A stretch of DNA of 16,818 bases from the NCBI GenBank assembly GCA_018432565.1, contig JAHDSS010000125.1, positions 1-16,818 of the forward strand, read 5' to 3'. Positions 7,643 to 16,818 of this stretch are shown here, in pieces (position 1 is the stretch's first letter; each line of letters starts with the position of its first letter). This DNA comes from Kiritimatiellia bacterium (lineage in GTDB: Bacteria > Verrucomicrobiota > Kiritimatiellia > CAIQIC01 > Lenti-01). A program made the position numbers and the translations under genes. The notes below the pieces were generated by a model. The model searched no databases, was not told the origin of the DNA, and saw nothing but the letters and a program-made list of their open reading frames with translations.

Positions 7643-7769
7643 GGAGTCAGGATTCAGAAGTCAGAATGAAATCCGGTCACTTATCTCTGCGTTCTCTGCG
7701 GCAAACCTGGCTGTTCAGTCTTCCCTTGGATATTGGTTATTGGACATTGAATATTGAGATTTGAATAAA
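7643..7769. repeat. Repeat-filled spacer between the antiporter and hydrogenase modules
   Basis: No gene lies here. The spacer contains three repeat-like pieces: GTCAGGATTCAGAAGTCAGA (from 7647; internally a GTCAG/GATTCAG-type duplication), a tandem CTCTGCG pair (7686-7701) and the AT-rich 32-base repeat (7726-7757). It looks like accreted dispersed repeats, not a designed leader. The AT-rich part could supply an internal promoter for mbhJ-N, but I see no strong -35/-10 pair. Confidence 0.5.
7726..7757 (+). repeat. AT-rich 32-base dispersed repeat, copy 2
   Basis: It reads TTGGATATTGGTTATTGG, then ACATTGAATATTGA, aligning gap-free to the copies at 259-290 and 9252-9283. It ends 12 nt before the mbhJ ATG, so any ribosome-binding function for mbhJ must come from this repeat or its edge (a weak GAG at 7756-7758). 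Confidence 0.6.
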
Positions 7770-8815: not shown

Positions 8816-8819
8816 GAGT

Positions 8820-8851
8820 TCAATATTCAATATTCAACAAGAAATATTCAA
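8820..8851 (-). repeat. AT-rich 32-base repeat, copy 3 (left arm)
   Basis: On the minus strand this reads TTGAATATTTCTTGTTGA, then ATATTGAATATTGA. It differs from the right arm (9252-9283) at one position of 32 and from copies 1 and 2 at several. It forms the left arm of the inverted repeat. Confidence 0.75.
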
Positions 8852-8860
8852 TAATCAACA

Positions 8861-9238
8861 ATGGCTGCCGAACGCGCATTTGACTTGGAAGAACGACTGA
8901 TCAACTACTCGGTCCGGATCATTCGTCTTTCCGAGGCTTTGCCGGACACCAAAGCCGGCCGCCATGTGGCGTCTCAAATTCTCCGCAGCGGCACGTCGCC
9001 CGCCCCCAACTATGGCGAGGCCCAGAGTGCGGAATCCAAGGCCGACTTCGTTCATAAGGTCAAAATCGCACTGAAGGAGCTGAAAGAGACCCGCATCTGG
9101 CTCAAGGTGATCTCCAAGGCCAAAATGGTCAAATCTGTCACCGCCCTCGATTCCCTCCTTCAGGAAACCGAAGAACTCATCGCCATCCTTTTCACCTCCG
9201 CACAAACCGCCCGCCGCCGCAACCCGGATTCAAACTGA
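8861..9238 (+). CDS. Four-helix-bundle protein (23S rRNA intervening-sequence protein family)
   Basis: This 125-aa protein of the S23/IVP-like four-helix-bundle family (TIGR02436 type) matches along its full length. It has FDLEERLINYSVRIIRLSEA (residues 7-26), the hallmark GRHVASQILRSGTSPAPNYGE (about 33-53, with S-x-P-A-x-N-Y-x-E), then the DFVHKVKIALKELKETRIWL helix block (about 62-81) and a last helix LDSLLQETEELIAILF. Relatives occur as ORFs inside 23S rRNA intervening sequences and as the Avd accessory protein of diversity-generating retroelements; most are basic and thought to bind nucleic acid, with no settled function. It is on the same strand as the hydrogenase genes and sits between mbhK and mbhL, inside a long inverted repeat. 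It has no role in known hydrogenases, so I infer an inserted passenger. The ATG at 8861 lacks a Shine-Dalgarno sequence. Confidence 0.9.
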   Translation: MAAERAFDLEERLINYSVRIIRLSEALPDTKAGRHVASQILRSGTSPAPNYGEAQSAESKADFVHKVKIALKELKETRIWLKVISKAKMVKSVTALDSLLQETEELIAILFTSAQTARRRNPDSN

Positions 9239-9251
9239 CCTTCCTTGAACG

Positions 9252-9283
9252 TTGAATATTTCTTGTTGAATATTGATTATTGA
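9252..9283 (+). repeat. AT-rich 32-base repeat, copy 4 (right arm)
   Basis: It reads TTGAATATTTCTTGTTGA, then ATATTGATTATTGA. It is the mirror of 8820-8851 with one mismatch (9277). It ends 9 nt before the mbhL ATG, so mbhL is translated from a site supplied by, or next to, the repeat (a weak CGAG at 9286-9289). Confidence 0.75.
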
Positions 9284-9292
9284 ATCGAGCTT

Positions 9293-11560: not shown

Positions 11561-11570
11561 AGGAGCCGAC

Positions 11571-11975
11571 ATGCCCTTCCCCATGGTCAACGAAGTCCTC
11601 GGACAGCTTCTCCGCAAACCCAACACCAACCCCTTCCCCGCCGCCCACCTGCCCCCCACCGTCACCGGCCTGCTCGAAAAAGTCGGCAAAGGCAAAGCCC
11701 GGCTGAATCCCACCGTCCCCGTCCCCGACAAACTGCGCGGCAAGATGACCTACAACCGCGAAACCTGCATCGGCTGCAACCTCTGCATCAAAGTCTGCCC
11801 CGCCCACGCCATCGACTTCATCGAAGAAACCAAAAAGATCCGGATCTTCGTCTCCCAGTGCATCCAGTGCGGGCAGTGCACCGAAATCTGCCCCAAGCAG
11901 TGCCTCGCCCTCTCCGGCGAATTTCTCAACGCCTCCCACGACCGCTACGCCCCCGAACTCGTCGTCGAAGACTGA
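11571..11975 (+). CDS. mbhN: Membrane-bound hydrogenase 2x[4Fe-4S] ferredoxin-like subunit MbhN
   Basis: This 134-aa protein of the NuoI-like family carries two [4Fe-4S] clusters: CIGCNLCIKVCP (Cys66, 69, 72, 76) and CIQCGQCTEICP (Cys97, 100, 103, 107). It is the docking and entry point for electrons from reduced ferredoxin, passing them through MbhJ to MbhL. The N-terminal ~55 residues are polar and Pro-rich (NPFPAAHLPPTVTGL...), as in MbhN, and probably contact the membrane arm. AGGAG at 11561-11565 is 5 nt ahead of the ATG. It is the last gene of the operon; a hairpin lies 43 nt downstream of the stop. Confidence 0.92.
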   Translation: MPFPMVNEVLGQLLRKPNTNPFPAAHLPPTVTGLLEKVGKGKARLNPTVPVPDKLRGKMTYNRETCIGCNLCIKVCPAHAIDFIEETKKIRIFVSQCIQCGQCTEICPKQCLALSGEFLNASHDRYAPELVVED

Positions 11976-11977
11976 CG

Positions 11978-12137
11978 CCTCGACTCCGCTCGACCCCGCG
12001 AGTTTGCCCTCTTGGGCCCCCACGGGCTTGTCCCGTGGGTGAACCAGTTCCGTAAGCCCCCGCTCGACTCCCATCGACTCCGCTCGCCCCCCCCTCAAAG
12101 CTCTCGCCCGTCGTCGCCGAAGTCGCCTGCGGTCGTC
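11978..12137. repeat. ~10-bp periodic TCG(A/C)C array, left copy
   Basis: After the mbhN stop, TCG trinucleotides in CTCGACTC/ATCGACTC/AGTCGCC contexts recur at 11980, 11990, then 12064, 12074, 12084, 12104, 12114, 12123 and 12133, that is about every 10 bases, with one slot missing near 12094. A hairpin (12018-12044) is embedded in the middle. The array ends at the 3' end of the minus-strand four-helix-suffix gene (stop at 12144). No ORF of interest was recognised in it. Confidence 0.5.
12018..12044 (+). repeat. Hairpin direct repeat, left copy; possible terminator for the hydrogenase operon
   Basis: A perfect 8-bp stem, CCCACGGG (12019-12026) with CCCGTGGG (12032-12039), closes a CTTGT loop 43 nt after the mbhN stop. 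There is no T-run on either side, so it is not a classic Rho-independent terminator. The 27-base unit recurs at 15934-15960 with 24 identical positions, so it is a dispersed or island-flanking repeat that may also slow transcription. Confidence 0.5.
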
Positions 12138-12143
12138 TCGGTT

Positions 12144-12896
12144 TCAGTTCTCGATTTCCCGCGTTCCCTTGCACTCCGGGAACGCTGTGCAACCCCAGAA
12201 CGGCTTGCCGGCTTTCTTGCCGCTTTTCGCCGTGCGCTTGCGCATCGGCTGACCGCAGTCCGGACAGGCCGGAACGCCCGCCGTCACATCCTGCTTCTCC
12301 CGTTCTTCGAGGCGAACCGCTGTCATCCGCTCGTGGAATCCACCCTCCTGACGGAACGTCTCGCCCTGCGCATCCAACTGCCGGTTCAGCATGTTCAACA
12401 CCCGGTGCAACAGGATCAACATGGCGTTGGCCATCAAATCCGGATCGTCCCCCTCCAGCCACTTTGCAAACTTGGCCTGCTGCGCCAAGAGGTAGTTCCC
12501 CGACTCGTGCAACCCGTCCCCTTCCTTCAGCGGATTCGGATCCAGCCGTACGTCGAAAACCGCCTGCGCTTCCGGCGAGGGAACCTTCCACGGCGCCCGT
12601 TTCCGCTTCAGCAGCCAGAATTCATAGTCCCCCTTCAACTCCGCCAAGCTCGCACGCGCCACGTCCGTCAGCCGCATCTCCGTGCCCTTGGAAGTTCCCG
12701 CCCGCTCGGAGCCCTCAACGATGTTCGCCCGGCCCGACCGCGCCGCCTGCGTCATCTGGTCGAACTGCCGCCCGCACGGATCGTTCTTCCGGTCCAGAAA
12801 CCGCTCGCAAAACCGCCACGTCCCCAACTGGATCACCGTTGCCAGTGTGAACGAATCCAGCTTCCGATAGCCCCCATGCTTGTCGAAGAGATTCAC
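12144..12896 (-). CDS. Four-helix-bundle protein with suffix domain and C-terminal C4 zinc finger
   Basis: The product is 250 aa. The N-terminal two-thirds match the longer class of four-helix-bundle proteins, the 'four helix bundle suffix domain' group. It has GGYRKLDSFTLATVIQLGTW (8-27), MTQAARSGRANIVEGSERAG (48-67; the A-x-S-G-x-x-N-I-x-E-G equivalent of the S23-family motif), then TSKGTEMRLTDVARASLAEL and GDYEFWLLKRKRAPW. The C-terminus carries a topoisomerase-type zinc ribbon: CPDC (Cys211, Cys214), a basic linker, then CTAFPEC (Cys236, Cys242). This suggests binding to single-stranded or structured DNA. I chose the GTG at 12896 because AGGAG lies 6 nt upstream (12903-12907 on the plus strand). 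An in-frame ATG at 13022 would add 42 residues encoded mostly by the AGTCG repeat array. It is divergent from the AEP-helicase-nuclease gene, which suggests a shared module; this functional link is inference. Confidence 0.82.
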   Translation of the reverse strand: MNLFDKHGGYRKLDSFTLATVIQLGTWRFCERFLDRKNDPCGRQFDQMTQAARSGRANIVEGSERAGTSKGTEMRLTDVARASLAELKGDYEFWLLKRKRAPWKVPSPEAQAVFDVRLDPNPLKEGDGLHESGNYLLAQQAKFAKWLEGDDPDLMANAMLILLHRVLNMLNRQLDAQGETFRQEGGFHERMTAVRLEEREKQDVTAGVPACPDCGQPMRKRTAKSGKKAGKPFWGCTAFPECKGTREIEN

Positions 12897-12923
12897 GACT
12901 TGCTCCTTTTGGTTTTCGACCCC

Positions 12924-13011
12924 AGTCAACTTCAGTCGACTCGCATCGACTGCTCCCCATAGTAGTCGCCCGTAGTCGCCAAAGTCGACACCAGAGTCGA
13001 CAGAAGTCGCT
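12924..13011. repeat. ~10-bp phased AGTCG(A/C)C array between divergent genes
   Basis: Heptamers AGTCAAC, AGTCGAC, (AT)CGAC, AGTCGCC, AGTCGCC, AGTCGAC, AGTCGAC and AGTCGCT begin at 12924, 12934, 12944, 12964, 12974, 12983, 12995 and 13005. Spacings are therefore 9-12 bases, with one empty slot at about 12954. The motif core GTCGAC is palindromic. The array fills the intergenic space between the two divergent starts (12896 and 13050), where promoters and any operator must lie. Confidence 0.65.
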
Positions 13012-13049
13012 CTGGGTGTCATCTTGTGCCTGCAACGATTGATCCCGCC

Positions 13050-15836
13050 ATGCTCACCGCCAGCGATAAGATTGCCCTCTTCCGGTCGCTGTTTCGCGGC
13101 CGCGTAGAGGTCTATCCCCGCCGATTCCAGAACAAGACCACCGGCCGGGCCGGCTATGCCCCGGCCTGCGCCAACGAATGGGTCCGGGATCTCTGCAACA
13201 AACGCAAAACCAAATGCGCCGAGTGCCCGAACCGCCGATTTCTGCCCGTCACCGACGACGTGATCCGCTGGCATCTCACGGGCGCGGGGCCGAGCGGCAA
13301 AGAGTTCGTCGCCGGGGTCTATCCGATGCTGTTGGATGAAACCTGTCACTTCCTCGCCGCCGACTTTGATAAGGAAGGCTGGAAGGCAGATGTGCAGGCC
13401 GTCGCCGCCACCTGCCGGGAATGGGAATTGCCTTATGCTCTGGAACGCTCGCGCTCCGGAAACGGGGCGCATCTTTGGCTGTTCTTTGATGAACCTGTGC
13501 CCGCCAGTCTGGCCCGCAAGCTGGGCGCTTCCCTCCTGACCGCCACCATGGAACGCCGCCCGGAACTGGGACTGGATTCCTATGATCGTCTCTTCCCCAA
13601 TCAGGACACCCTCCCCCAAGGCGGCTTCGGCAATCTGATCGCCCTCCCGCTCCAGGGCACGCCCCGGAAATCGGGCAACAGTGTTTTCCTGGACGATTCC
13701 CTGAACGCCTATGCCGATCCATGGGAGTTTCTGACCGCCGTGACCAAAATCAAGCGCTCACGAGTCGAATCGCTTGTGGCCGAAGCCGAATCCCGGGGAA
13801 ATGTCACCGGCGTGCGCTTCGTGCTGGATGATGAGAATGATGCCGCCCCCTGGCAACAACCGCCCTCACGCCGGAAGGGTTCTTCCACATTGACGGGCTC
13901 CCTGCCATCCTCGCTGGAGGTTGTCCTGGCCAATGAAATTTATATTACAAAAGAGAACCTGCCCCCCTCCCTGCGCAATGCCCTGATTCGACTGGCGGCA
14001 TTCCAGAACCCCGAATTCTACCGCCAGCAGGCCATGCGTCTGCCGACATTCGGCATGCCCCGAATTATCGGCTGTGCGGAAGATCACGGCCAGTACATCG
14101 GACTTCCCCGGGGCTGTTTGGAAGACCTTCAATCCCTGCTGGCGGCCAACCGGATCGCTCTGAAGCTCCAAGACAAGCGCAACGAGGGCTCCCCCCTGAG
14201 CGTCACCTTCCAGGGTCAACTTCGCCCCGAACAGCAACTCGCGGCCGATACGCTGGCCCGCCATGACACCGGCGTGCTGTCCGCCACCACGGCATTCGGA
14301 AAAACCGTCGTCGCCGCGTGGATGATAGCGCGGCGTGGCGTCAATACCCTGATCCTTGTCCACCGCCGGCAACTCCTGGAGCAGTGGATCGAACGGCTGT
14401 CCACGTTCCTGGGCCTGCCGGCCAAATCCATCGGCCGCGCCGGCGGCGGACGCAAGAAATTCACGGGGGTGATCGACGTCGCCCTGATTCAAAGCATGGT
14501 GCGCAAGGGCGTCGTAAATGACCATATTGGCGAATACGGACACCTGGTGGTAGACGAATGCCATCATGTCCCGGCCGTCAGTTTCGAGCAGGTGGCGCGG
14601 AGAGCCAACGCCAAATATGTCTTGGGACTATCCGCAACGGTTTCACGGAAAGACGGCCATCATCCCATCCTGTTCATGCAATGCGGCCCCGTGCGATACC
14701 GGGTGGACGCCCGGAGACAGGCGGAAACCCGATCTTTTTCCCATACCGTTTGGGTGCGCCCCACCTCCTTTCACATGCCGGAGTCCACCCGGGACGACGC
14801 ACGCATCCCCTTTCACGACCTCTATGGCGCGCTGGTGTCTGATCCCCGGCGCAACGACTTGATCTGTGAAGACATCCTGAATGCCCTGCGTGAAAACCGG
14901 AAACCCGTAGTGCTGACGGAACGTCGCGAACACCTGGAGCAGTTGGCCGCCAACCTGAGACCGCTCGTAAAACATTTGGTCATTTTGCAGGGCGGCATGG
15001 GCAAAAAACAACTGGGCCGAGCCATGGCGCAATTGGCGGAAATACCTGAGAACGAAGACCGGGTTTTGCTGGCCACCGGCCGATATCTCGGAGAAGGATT
15101 CGACGATGCCCGGCTGGATACGCTGTTCCTGACCCTGCCGGTCTCCTGGCGCGGCACGATAGCCCAATATGTGGGGCGCCTCCACCGCCGCCATGACCTT
15201 AAGCGTGAGGTTCGGGTCTATGATTATGCCGACCTCAACGTCCCCATGCTGGCCAAGATGTTCGACCGCCGTTGCAAAGGGTACGAATCCGTCGGCTATT
15301 CCATTCTGCTCCCGGCCAGTGCCGTACCCGGCTGGCCCCCCGACGTGCCCCTCCCGGTGGACCCGCAGTGGAAGCGCGACTATTCCGCCAGCGTTCAGCG
15401 CCTCATCCGCGACGGCGTGGATGCGCCGCTGGGCAACCTGTTCGTTCATGCCGCCAAAACCTCGGATGTGGGCCGGAACAACATCGAACACGCCCGCAGC
15501 GCGACGGAAGCCTTCCTCTTCAAGCGCCTGGAAACACTGGAAGCCACGCGCGGACGCTTTCACCTCAACGTCCCCCTGCCCATTTTCTTCGGCGGGCAAA
15601 GCACCATGGAGGTGGACCTGCTGTGTCCCGACTCACGGCTGGCCATCGAATTGGATGGTCCGCAACACCTGAACAATCCAGAACCCTACCGCCGGGACCG
15701 CCAGAAGGATGCGCTTTTACAGGAAAACGGCTACTTCGTCCTGCGCTTCCTGGCCGAGGATGTCAGCAAGCGCCTCGACCACATCCTCGACACCATTCTC
15801 CGTACCCTGCAGACTCAGCGCCGCCCCTCCCCGTAG
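13050..15836 (+). CDS. AEP (TOTE-type) primase - SF2 helicase - DUF559-like nuclease fusion
   Basis: This ~928-aa multidomain protein has three parts. Residues ~1-260 form an archaeo-eukaryotic primase domain of the TOTE conflict-system type: a Cys cluster (Cys40, 49, 56, 59), the metal motif ADFDK (Asp105, Asp107), SGNGAHLW (His141), DSYDRLFPNQD (176-186) and GGFGNLIALPLQ. Residues ~390-750 form an SF2 helicase: Walker A ATTAFGKT (Lys418), HRRQLLEQW, Walker B DECHH (502-506), SAT (528-530) and motif VI QYVGRLHRR (706-714). Residues ~820-928 are a PD-(D/E)XK/DUF559-like nuclease: VDLL with Asp856, then IELDGPQH (Glu867, Asp869), and YRRDRQKDALL...GYFVLRFLAEDV. All catalytic motifs look intact. 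Such proteins are predicted to act in conflict with invading nucleic acid. The ATG at 13050 is chosen; a GTG at 13026 is in frame and adds 8 residues. Codon use is less C-biased in places (about 13930-13970) than in the hydrogenase genes, consistent with acquisition. Confidence 0.88.
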   Translation: MLTASDKIALFRSLFRGRVEVYPRRFQNKTTGRAGYAPACANEWVRDLCNKRKTKCAECPNRRFLPVTDDVIRWHLTGAGPSGKEFVAGVYPMLLDETCHFLAADFDKEGWKADVQAVAATCREWELPYALERSRSGNGAHLWLFFDEPVPASLARKLGASLLTATMERRPELGLDSYDRLFPNQDTLPQGGFGNLIALPLQGTPRKSGNSVFLDDSLNAYADPWEFLTAVTKIKRSRVESLVAEAESRGNVTGVRFVLDDENDAAPWQQPPSRRKGSSTLTGSLPSSLEVVLANEIYITKENLPPSLRNALIRLAAFQNPEFYRQQAMRLPTFGMPRIIGCAEDHGQYIGLPRGCLEDLQSLLAANRIALKLQDKRNEGSPLSVTFQGQLRPEQQLAADTLARHDTGVLSATTAFGKTVVAAWMIARRGVNTLILVHRRQLLEQWIERLSTFLGLPAKSIGRAGGGRKKFTGVIDVALIQSMVRKGVVNDHIGEYGHLVVDECHHVPAVSFEQVARRANAKYVLGLSATVSRKDGHHPILFMQCGPVRYRVDARRQAETRSFSHTVWVRPTSFHMPESTRDDARIPFHDLYGALVSDPRRNDLICEDILNALRENRKPVVLTERREHLEQLAANLRPLVKHLVILQGGMGKKQLGRAMAQLAEIPENEDRVLLATGRYLGEGFDDARLDTLFLTLPVSWRGTIAQYVGRLHRRHDLKREVRVYDYADLNVPMLAKMFDRRCKGYESVGYSILLPASAVPGWPPDVPLPVDPQWKRDYSASVQRLIRDGVDAPLGNLFVHAAKTSDVGRNNIEHARSATEAFLFKRLETLEATRGRFHLNVPLPIFFGGQSTMEVDLLCPDSRLAIELDGPQHLNNPEPYRRDRQKDALLQENGYFVLRFLAEDVSKRLDHILDTILRTLQTQRRPSP

Positions 15837-15933: not shown

Positions 15934-15960
15934 CCCCACGGGCTCGTCCCGTCGGTGAAT
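15934..15960 (+). repeat. Hairpin direct repeat, right copy
   Basis: It matches 12018-12044 at 24 of 27 positions in the same orientation. The stem is weaker than in the left copy because one G-C pair is lost (CCCGTCGG instead of CCCGTGGG). It directly follows a 12-base C run (15926-15937). With the left copy it brackets the two accessory genes. Confidence 0.55.
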
Positions 15961-16221: not shown

Positions 16222-16818
16222 ATGTTCAAGCCCGTTTCCAGCAAAATGTCGTTTCCCGAAATGGAGGAGGACGTCCTCCGCTTCTGGGCCGAGCACGACA
16301 CGTTCAAGAAGTCCATCGCCCACCGCCGGGGCGCCAGGGAATACGTCTTCTACGACGGCCCTCCTTTCGCCACCGGCGCCCCCCACTACGGCCATCTCCT
16401 CGCCGGCACCATCAAAGACATCCTGCCGCGCTACCAGACCATGCGCGGACACCTGGTCGAACGGCGTTTCGGCTGGGACTGCCACGGCCTGCCCATCGAG
16501 GCCCTCGCCCAGGAGAAGCTCGGGCTCTCCGGCGCCGCCGACATCGCCGCCCGGGGCGTGGATGTCTTCAACGAAACCTGCCGCTCCATGGTGCTCACCT
16601 ACGTCGAGGAATGGCGCAAAACCGTCACCCGCATGGGCCGATGGGTGGACTTCGACAACGATTACAAAACGATGGACCCCTCCTTCATGGAGACCATCTG
16701 GTGGGTGTTCAAGCAGCTCTGGGAGCAGGGCCGCGTGTACAAGTCCCACCGCATCATGCCCTATTCCTGGAAGCTCAACACCCCCCTCTCCAACTTCGAG
16801 GCCGGCAGCAACTACCAG
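16222..16818 (+). CDS. ileS: Isoleucyl-tRNA synthetase, N-terminal part (runs off the window)
   Basis: The first 199 codons of a class I synthetase that charges tRNA-Ile with isoleucine are present; the gene continues past the end. Residues visible include FYDGPPFATGAPHYGHLLAG with the HIGH-type signature His55-Tyr-Gly-His58, RFGWDCHGLPIE, GRWVDFDNDYKTMD, WWVFKQLWEQGRVYKS and TPLSNFEAGSNYQ. These blocks are those of the eukaryotic/archaeal-like IleRS class (often called IleRS2), not of the common bacterial class, which has a DGPPYANG-x-x-HIGH-type motif. AGGAAG at 16211-16216 sits 5 nt ahead of the ATG at 16222. The editing domain and KMSKS loop are beyond the window. Confidence 0.95.
   Translation, partial: MFKPVSSKMSFPEMEEDVLRFWAEHDTFKKSIAHRRGAREYVFYDGPPFATGAPHYGHLLAGTIKDILPRYQTMRGHLVERRFGWDCHGLPIEALAQEKLGLSGAADIAARGVDVFNETCRSMVLTYVEEWRKTVTRMGRWVDFDNDYKTMDPSFMETIWWVFKQLWEQGRVYKSHRIMPYSWKLNTPLSNFEAGSNYQ

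Follow-up and report, generated by a model that had tools for sequence, protein, structure and literature searches.

TOTE stands for TPR, OB, TBP and Effector conflict systems, and TBP is counted among their defining parts in PMC12458937. In the CAPP-Helicase type, as outlined in PMC8211822, a Prim-Pol domain is followed by a helicase domain. As for small helical proteins, PMC10053308 notes a resemblance of PF05635 to Avd, and PMC4990558 describes the intervening sequence (IVS) of 23S rRNA as an S23-type open reading frame (ORF) in the loop of complementary, stem-forming ends. The locus treated here lies on contig JAHDSS010000125.1 of a Kiritimatiellia bacterium, a 16,818-nt stretch that was analysed whole and is called the window below. 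It encodes a primase-helicase-nuclease fusion (P1) and, divergently, a four-helix-suffix protein with a zinc ribbon (P2). The first-pass annotation had proposed that the two form a conflict module in which the zinc-finger protein is the partner of the large enzyme. We consider a different reading probable: P1 and P2 are independent accessory genes that became neighbours by chance rather than a conserved pair, and P2 is the gene of a repeat-bordered cassette. The two genes and the gap between them are:

12144..12896, minus strand: P2, four-helix-suffix protein with zinc ribbon, 250 aa, GTG start at 12896 (profiles, homologues, model)
12897..13049, no strand: gap between the P1 and P2 starts, with several AGTCG/GTCGA units at a spacing of about 9-12 nt in 12925-13010
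13050..15836, plus strand: P1, fusion of AEP-TOTE primase, SF2 helicase and DUF559 nuclease, 928 aa (profile matches, homologues, model)

The evidence against a pair comes from the same locus in relatives. P2 is preceded in the window by a Nuo/Mrp-type operon whose last gene encodes a ferredoxin (11568-11975). Fifteen ferredoxin loci from other genomes in the order were compared: in 14, nucleotide similarity with the window stops at or before 11979, the ferredoxin end; in the remaining one, of genome G396, it continues to 12072. Because similarity ends with the ferredoxin in relatives, we regard the P2-P1 block as a variable insert. G393, a genome of the same genus, has the same Nuo...ferredoxin operon (ferredoxin at L352:2307-2708), followed by a 507-aa ORF and then by a P1 orthologue (L352:4558-7218, 65% identity over 921 residues). 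The ORF standing in P2's place is unrelated to P2 and appears by eye to encode a membrane protein, and all six P2-like matches of G393 lie on contigs other than that of the P1 orthologue. Separately, the region downstream of this orthologue (L352:7833-10919) holds ORFs that by eye resemble those for a Fic protein and for a transposase, as would suit a variable region. G068, also of the same genus, carries P1 on contig 73 and a zinc-ribbon four-helix gene on contig 38. Within the family as a whole P1 occurs in 5 of 17 genomes and P2-like genes in 12 of 17, and the two are adjacent in the window genome only; in G090 they share a contig at a distance of about 15 kb.

Wider samples agree from both directions. 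From the side of P2 we took the best 80 of 567 relatives. They come from named genomes spread over many phyla and have flanks of up to 8 kb; 77 of these align through the ribbon (L268, L276 and L293 do not), and none of the 80 has a P1 relative in its flanks (tblastn, E 1e-8). From the side of P1 we took 50 of the 60 other places found, leaving out fragments as well as one second copy that lay on a short contig; 48 passed the phmmer cut, and many contigs are so short that the flanks are cut. A four-helix-suffix gene lies within 1.3 kb of P1 in two of these 48 neighbourhoods, both times without a ribbon, as scanned with a profile of 31 domain pieces, one of which (L026) was in the wrong orientation. 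One is in G314 (33 bp away and convergent, in a genome with 14 such genes) and the other in G004 (1.2 kb away, in tandem and partial). Adjacency of P1 and P2 thus does not recur across genomes as it would in a conserved module, and pairing by conserved neighbourhood is rejected from the P1 loci and from the P2 loci alike.

Two observations tell against full independence. A uniform model with rounded genome sizes expects 0.036 such P1/four-helix neighbours within 500 bp and 0.142 within 2 kb, with P = 0.009 for two or more, so that some co-localisation must be allowed; and all five family genomes with P1 also have a P2-like gene, which fits a looser, unlinked connection. Our own conjecture is that co-localisation of P1 and four-helix genes would come from a shared preference for variable, defence-rich regions. 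In substance, then, the count of neighbours that had been set beforehand as a check found no pairing, and what it left standing is the excess over uniform chance in those two loci.

The alternative is that P1 and P2 are a functional divergent defence module, in which P2, bound to the promoter they share or to the target nucleic acid, controls P1 or protects from it. The first-pass annotation was right about the geometry, the starts being divergent and 153 bp apart with the two genes where it had placed them, and the zinc ribbon and modelled four-helix fold of P2 would be compatible with nucleic-acid binding. P2-type genes are also associated with defence operons, and the proximity in two other phylum genomes exceeds uniform expectation. 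However, those two neighbours lack the ribbon and are arranged differently, the orthologous P1 locus of G393 has no P2, the genes sit on different contigs in G068, and none of the 80 P2 relatives is close to P1. The zinc-finger protein therefore does not hold up as a partner of P1, synteny already contradicts the divergent module, and we consider this alternative very improbable. Its removal takes away a false defence pair and leaves P1 as an ordinary member of a large primase-helicase-nuclease family.

If P2 does not belong to P1, the question becomes what P2 is. Three parts of the protein can be delimited:

12345..12857, minus strand: helical part of P2, whose helices in the model fall within residues 14-184
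12300-12437, minus strand: TIGR04258 motif of P2 (profile)
12171..12266, minus strand: C4 zinc ribbon of P2, with C211, C214, C236 and C242 of the 250-aa protein

The start at 12896 was chosen because homologues are about 250 aa long and AGGAG stands 6 nt ahead of the GTG; a 491-aa ORF was rejected as the P2 protein, its frame being merely open past the true start, to 13619 or more. With 62.3 bits against TIGR04258 (cut-off 40) and 34.1 bits against Zn_ribbon_Top1 (PF01396, cut-off 32), and with ribbon cysteines that are nearly invariant in the homologue alignment, P2 is a four-helix-bundle suffix protein with a topoisomerase-type C4 zinc ribbon, as had been read from the sequence at first pass. 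Its scores against PF05635 (22.1 bits, cut-off 33.8) and TIGR02436 (23.1, cut-off 24) fall below the cut-offs. The model has a mean pLDDT (predicted local distance difference test) of 88.0, and its best Foldseek matches in the PDB are 2gsc (E 0.015), which is reported to be a pentamer, and 2rld (E 0.27); both belong to the intervening-sequence protein family. At rank 38 (E 1.4) comes 8ub7, the Avd chain from a diversity-generating retroelement (DGR) complex. P2 has 4,867 homologues at E 0.001, and TIGR04258 matches occur in 207 of 387 phylum genomes. P2 itself has no match in PADLOC, in PHROG or, by sequence, in the PDB, and with no PADLOC match a defence model for it was rejected. We found no description of the function of zinc-ribbon four-helix-suffix proteins in the open-licence literature, which does not establish that none is in print.

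The cassette reading draws on the flanks of P2-type genes, for which two sets were used: 60 TIGR04258 genes of the phylum sample (L113-L172) and the 80 P2 relatives (L230-L309). The 220 nt on either side of each gene were matched to each other, and a match was counted at p <=0.05 against other segments of the same locus. Inverted matches were found at 15 of 59 TIGR04258 genes versus 1 of 85 control genes, and direct matches at 10 of 59 versus 3 of 85; the second set gave 16 of 76 inverted and 23 of 76 direct. Among 64 trinucleotides and 13 spacings, GTC/GAC at exactly 9 nt was the most enriched in the flanks, with 3.03 and 2.60 pairs per kb in the two P2-type sets versus 0.53 and 0.39 in two control sets; this signal was first spotted by eye in both sets, and neither is a blind test of it. 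Three or more GTC in steps of 8-10 nt occur on both flanks in 12/60 and 11/80 P2-type loci versus 0/92 and 1/362 controls. The P2 gene of the window has three-unit GTC chains on both flanks, together with a direct repeat:

12080..12143, no strand: downstream flank of P2, with a degenerate direct repeat common with the upstream flank (score 29, z 4.8)

Some further details of such flanks were noted. Beside TIGR04258 genes (for example L230, L233, L272, L127 and L130) GTC recurs every 9 nt in short tandem units; these are often hairpins or stand in copies to either side of the gene, and the unit sequence varies by genome. At L114 and L116 (also L165, L230 and L250) the flanks of the four-helix-suffix gene share a long direct duplication, with scores of 46-83; at L114 the duplicated piece looks by eye like a methylase gene's 3' end, as though the insert had made a copy of its target. 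A loose search of the open-licence literature turned up, among the papers listed, none on such repeats by title. Exact GTCN6 arrays were rejected as a marker of P2 loci: five-unit arrays occur in 173 of 387 phylum genomes, also away from four-helix genes, and are absent from the window genome, and the control pattern in reverse turns up commonly as well.

Since its relatives are often repeat-bordered and often stand in type I operons, we take P2 to be a cassette gene. More specifically, P2 would be the gene of a small repeat-bordered cassette related to intervening-sequence and Avd proteins, it may bind the DNA or the RNA of its own repeats through a zinc ribbon presumably added for nucleic acid, and the cassette may be mobile. 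We put forward, tentatively and at somewhat less than even chances, the general form of this idea: that zinc-ribbon four-helix-suffix genes are an undescribed IVS-like cassette class, with a protein of the Avd/S23 fold encoded between matching arrays, made of units of about 9 nt with a fixed GTC. Such a cassette would spread between genes with a preference for type I operons, and its protein would recognise the arrays either as DNA or in the form of RNA hairpins. Several results pull in the other direction. The inverted test is not significant in 44 of 59 TIGR04258 genes, and neither test is in 48 of 76 genes of the second set; the window P2 passes the direct test only (inverted p 0.08); the window genome contains no exact five-unit GTCN6 array versus six of the reversed control pattern; and the Foldseek E-values of P2 are weak, the best being 0.015 and none below 0.001.

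The second association of P2-type genes is with type I restriction-modification. Type I genes stand no more than 400 bp from 14 of the 80 P2 relatives and from the P2-type gene of 10 of the 60 phylum TIGR04258 loci (24/140), as labelled per locus from sequence clusters by eye and by motif, in agreement with the PADLOC and Pfam counts. In PADLOC terms, the 115 neighbours of the 60 TIGR04258 genes include 7 type I methyltransferases and 6 specificity proteins (E 1e-15), and 105 neighbours of 57 of the 80 P2 relatives include 7 type I restriction, 6 specificity and 4 methyltransferase genes; the latter scan took 105 of 149 neighbour genes, those of L230-L286. The same type I models match none of 115 control genes, and no type I gene lies anywhere in the 50 P1 loci or in 20 control regions. 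The remaining P2-type loci are mixed, with isocitrate dehydrogenase, electron-transfer flavoprotein, sulfatase and other metabolic neighbours, and for this reason the type I association is a preference and not a rule. Defence surroundings, among which the first-pass annotation had suggested looking for the homologues, were found for P1 loci, as described below, and for some P2 loci, though the latter are type I restriction-modification operons.

These counts also bear on a competing explanation, namely that restriction systems have P2 and its relatives as genuine auxiliary subunits, the repeats being regulatory or recombination sites within operons rather than cassette borders. Besides the 24 of 140 loci, it could account for the same-strand orientation of 109 of the 149 neighbours of P2 relatives and for the name 'restriction system protein' that the automatic JGI annotation gives to several P2 homologues. 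It fits poorly with the 66 of 80 and 50 of 60 P2-type loci that have no type I gene and with the metabolic genes found there instead, and a related four-helix gene of the window (8861-9238) sits in an electron-transport operon. We consider it unlikely. No paper on a four-helix protein together with restriction-modification was found among open-licence papers.

That related gene offers a model for a cassette within the window itself:

8861-9238: four-helix gene (TIGR02436), between NuoC- and NuoD-like genes
8819-8858 and 9251-9285: TTCAATA/TTGAATA heptamer arrays around the four-helix gene, inverted copies (score 32, z 10.7)

In a predicted transcript of 8819-9286 the two arms form one long closing stem (-163.7 kcal/mol, z -6.9, with 0 of 100 shuffles as good). 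The NuoC/NuoD junction varies among relatives: G068 has the same four-helix gene and arms, G264 the arms and no four-helix gene, G393 the arms around a different small ORF, and G396 and G225 three AATCCTGTC-like units, while G095, G392 and G394 have neither arms nor gene within the stretch read. The small ORF of G393 lies between similar arrays about 350 nt upstream of the NuoD-like gene (L199), and it may encode a DUF2283-like protein. A further array of TTGAATA/TTGGATA heptamers stands at 7726-7767 of the window, just ahead of the NuoB-like gene. The cassette at 8819-9286 looks like an intervening-sequence layout in a protein-coding mRNA operon, and because of this layout the P2 family may, by analogy, be read as cassette genes as well. 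Open-licence papers yielded nothing that treats rRNA intervening sequences and mobile four-helix genes together.

If the cassette reading of P2 is true, the window shows one such gene that landed beside a stand-alone AEP-TOTE effector. The P2 family may matter more than P1, being widespread and measurably associated both with type I genes and with GTC nonamer repeats; these two associations make the hypothesis of binding and mobility directly testable.

The domains of P1, in contrast to its supposed partnership, are as the first-pass annotation had assigned them:

13065..13772, plus strand: AEP (Prim-Pol) domain of P1, with intact DxD, SGxGxH and SYD motifs and PDB relatives
14217..15305, right limit approximate, plus strand: SF2 (XPB/ResIII-like) helicase core of P1, with Walker A, DECH, SAT and QYxGRxHR motifs
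15612..15812, plus strand: DUF559 (Vsr-like, PD-(D/E)XK) nuclease domain at the C-terminus of P1 (Pfam, weak PDB sequence match, model)

P1 probably starts at ATG 13050, since its closest homologues are 928 aa long; begun at an upstream GTG (13026) it would have 936 aa, and the Pfam residue ranges given here are counted from that GTG. AEP-TOTE (PF22548) matches residues 14-249 with E 1.9e-95 and 319.3 bits against a cut-off of 27, which places P1 firmly in the AEP-TOTE family, and D113, D115, H149 and D187 are kept in at least 96% of 48 homologues. ResIII follows at residues 398-541 (E 2.4e-19), and the helicase residues G425-K426-T427, D510-E511-C512-H513 and R718/R721 reach at least 92% identity in the same homologues. 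DUF559 covers residues 863-929 (E 4.6e-12); the nuclease assignment combines this match with a weak PDB sequence match to 3hrl (E 7e-4) and a modelled strand-helix pattern in residues 818-922, the fold search having covered the whole protein, and conservation in this region is far lower than at the primase and helicase motifs. The N-terminus has four cysteines (C48, C57, C64 and C67 in the 936-aa numbering), of which C64 is conserved, yet below the 90% list. Sequence relatives of the AEP part in the PDB are 7nqd and 7nqf. The AlphaFold model of the whole protein has a mean pLDDT of 81.2, and its top PDB fold matches include XPB-family helicases, XPB-Bax1 complexes among them, and the CAPP Prim-Pol 7nqe (TMt 0.82). 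P1 reaches neither the XPB equivalog cut-off (E 5.7e-19, 68.1 bits; cut-off 610) nor that of CAPP (67.4 bits; cut-off 200).

The P1 family is large, with at least 7,998 proteins scored, and P1-type genes occur in 57 of 387 phylum genomes. Its neighbourhoods were surveyed with neighbour ORFs chosen crudely, longest first, and with a wrong strand sign for some downstream genes. Each neighbour family is found in 4 of 49 P1 loci at most, and a conserved third partner was rejected on this count. The neighbours are rich in AbiEii, Fic, DUF4143-AAA, restriction, toxin-antitoxin and similar genes: 87 neighbour genes of other P1 loci match 109 PADLOC families (E 1e-8) versus 17 for 115 control genes, with PDC-S01, Fic and AbiEii as the leading models. 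The proposed conflict setting of P1 is in this way supported by context. TBP is over the cut-off in 0 of 25 P1-bearing genomes, including the window genome (82.9% complete), with one sub-threshold match in G169, and P1 was rejected as part of a full TOTE system for lack of it. No TPR-OB (cold-shock) gene is among the identified window neighbours; no profile search for it was made across genomes, and 25 of 112 neighbour Pfam families were listed. With no recurrent neighbour family and no TBP, P1 is best read as an AEP-TOTE family effector domain without the known TOTE operon, a stand-alone effector in variable, defence-rich regions. The family is widespread and already known, and probably defensive.

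As such an effector, P1 could act in a single chain without an obligatory partner gene. Its XPB-like SF2 motor would load on invading nucleic acid and open, track along or remodel it, the Prim-Pol domain would use the exposed strand for synthesis or sense it, and the Vsr-like nuclease would cut. We give an anti-invader role about an even chance. The XPB-family structures among the top fold matches and the XPB profile match raise the alternative that P1 serves DNA repair instead of acting as a defence effector, with an XPB-type motor and nuclease (compare archaeal XPB-Bax1) and a gap-filling Prim-Pol. For a repair enzyme the occurrence is patchy, in 57 of 387 phylum genomes and 5 of 17 genomes of the family, its neighbours are rich in toxin-antitoxin and restriction genes relative to control genes, and 68 bits are far from the XPB equivalog cut-off. 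A repair role is accordingly improbable in our estimate, and the remainder falls to other roles in mobile elements. Papers linking Prim-Pol, DUF559 and helicase in defence were not found among those under open licence.

Elsewhere in the window, similar palindromes (CCCACGGGCTTGTCCCGTGGG-like) stand at 12014-12043 and 15934-15959, on either side of the P2-P1 block, and the former is also present after the ferredoxin gene in G396; they are possibly REP-like (repetitive extragenic palindromic) elements or a recombination route of insertion. Beyond the block, a gene start on the plus strand at 16222-16818 runs off the contig and looks by eye like isoleucyl-tRNA synthetase; it has no match in the fetched relative loci beside the ferredoxin gene. 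The window contains no tRNA and no Rfam match at gathering score. No cas gene is among its identified genes, and CRISPR arrays were not searched for separately.

Set against described systems, P1 resembles AEP-TOTE proteins in having the AEP-TOTE domain fused to an SF2 helicase and a nuclease, as in its homologues, and it adds one member to an already known family. TOTE systems differ in having TBP in the operon, whereas none of the 25 P1-bearing genomes has it over the cut-off and no neighbour is conserved in 49 P1 loci. With CAPP, P1 shares the Prim-Pol fold (7nqe), yet it scores 67 bits against the equivalog cut-off of 200 and has the extra nuclease domain. XPB/Rad25, which goes with the Bax1 nuclease in archaea, has an SF2 core like that of P1 and provides the best fold matches, but P1 differs in its fused primase and DUF559 nuclease and in a score far under the equivalog cut-off. 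The helical part of P2 matches the 23S-rRNA intervening-sequence proteins (PF05635/TIGR02436) 2gsc and 2rld best, with the DGR Avd chain 8ub7 lower; P2 differs from that family in its sub-cut-off scores, its TIGR04258 suffix, its zinc ribbon and its location outside rRNA. The cassette at 8819-9286 has the same layout as the 23S rRNA IVS, an S23-type ORF between complementary ends, but it lies in a protein-coding operon instead of rRNA.

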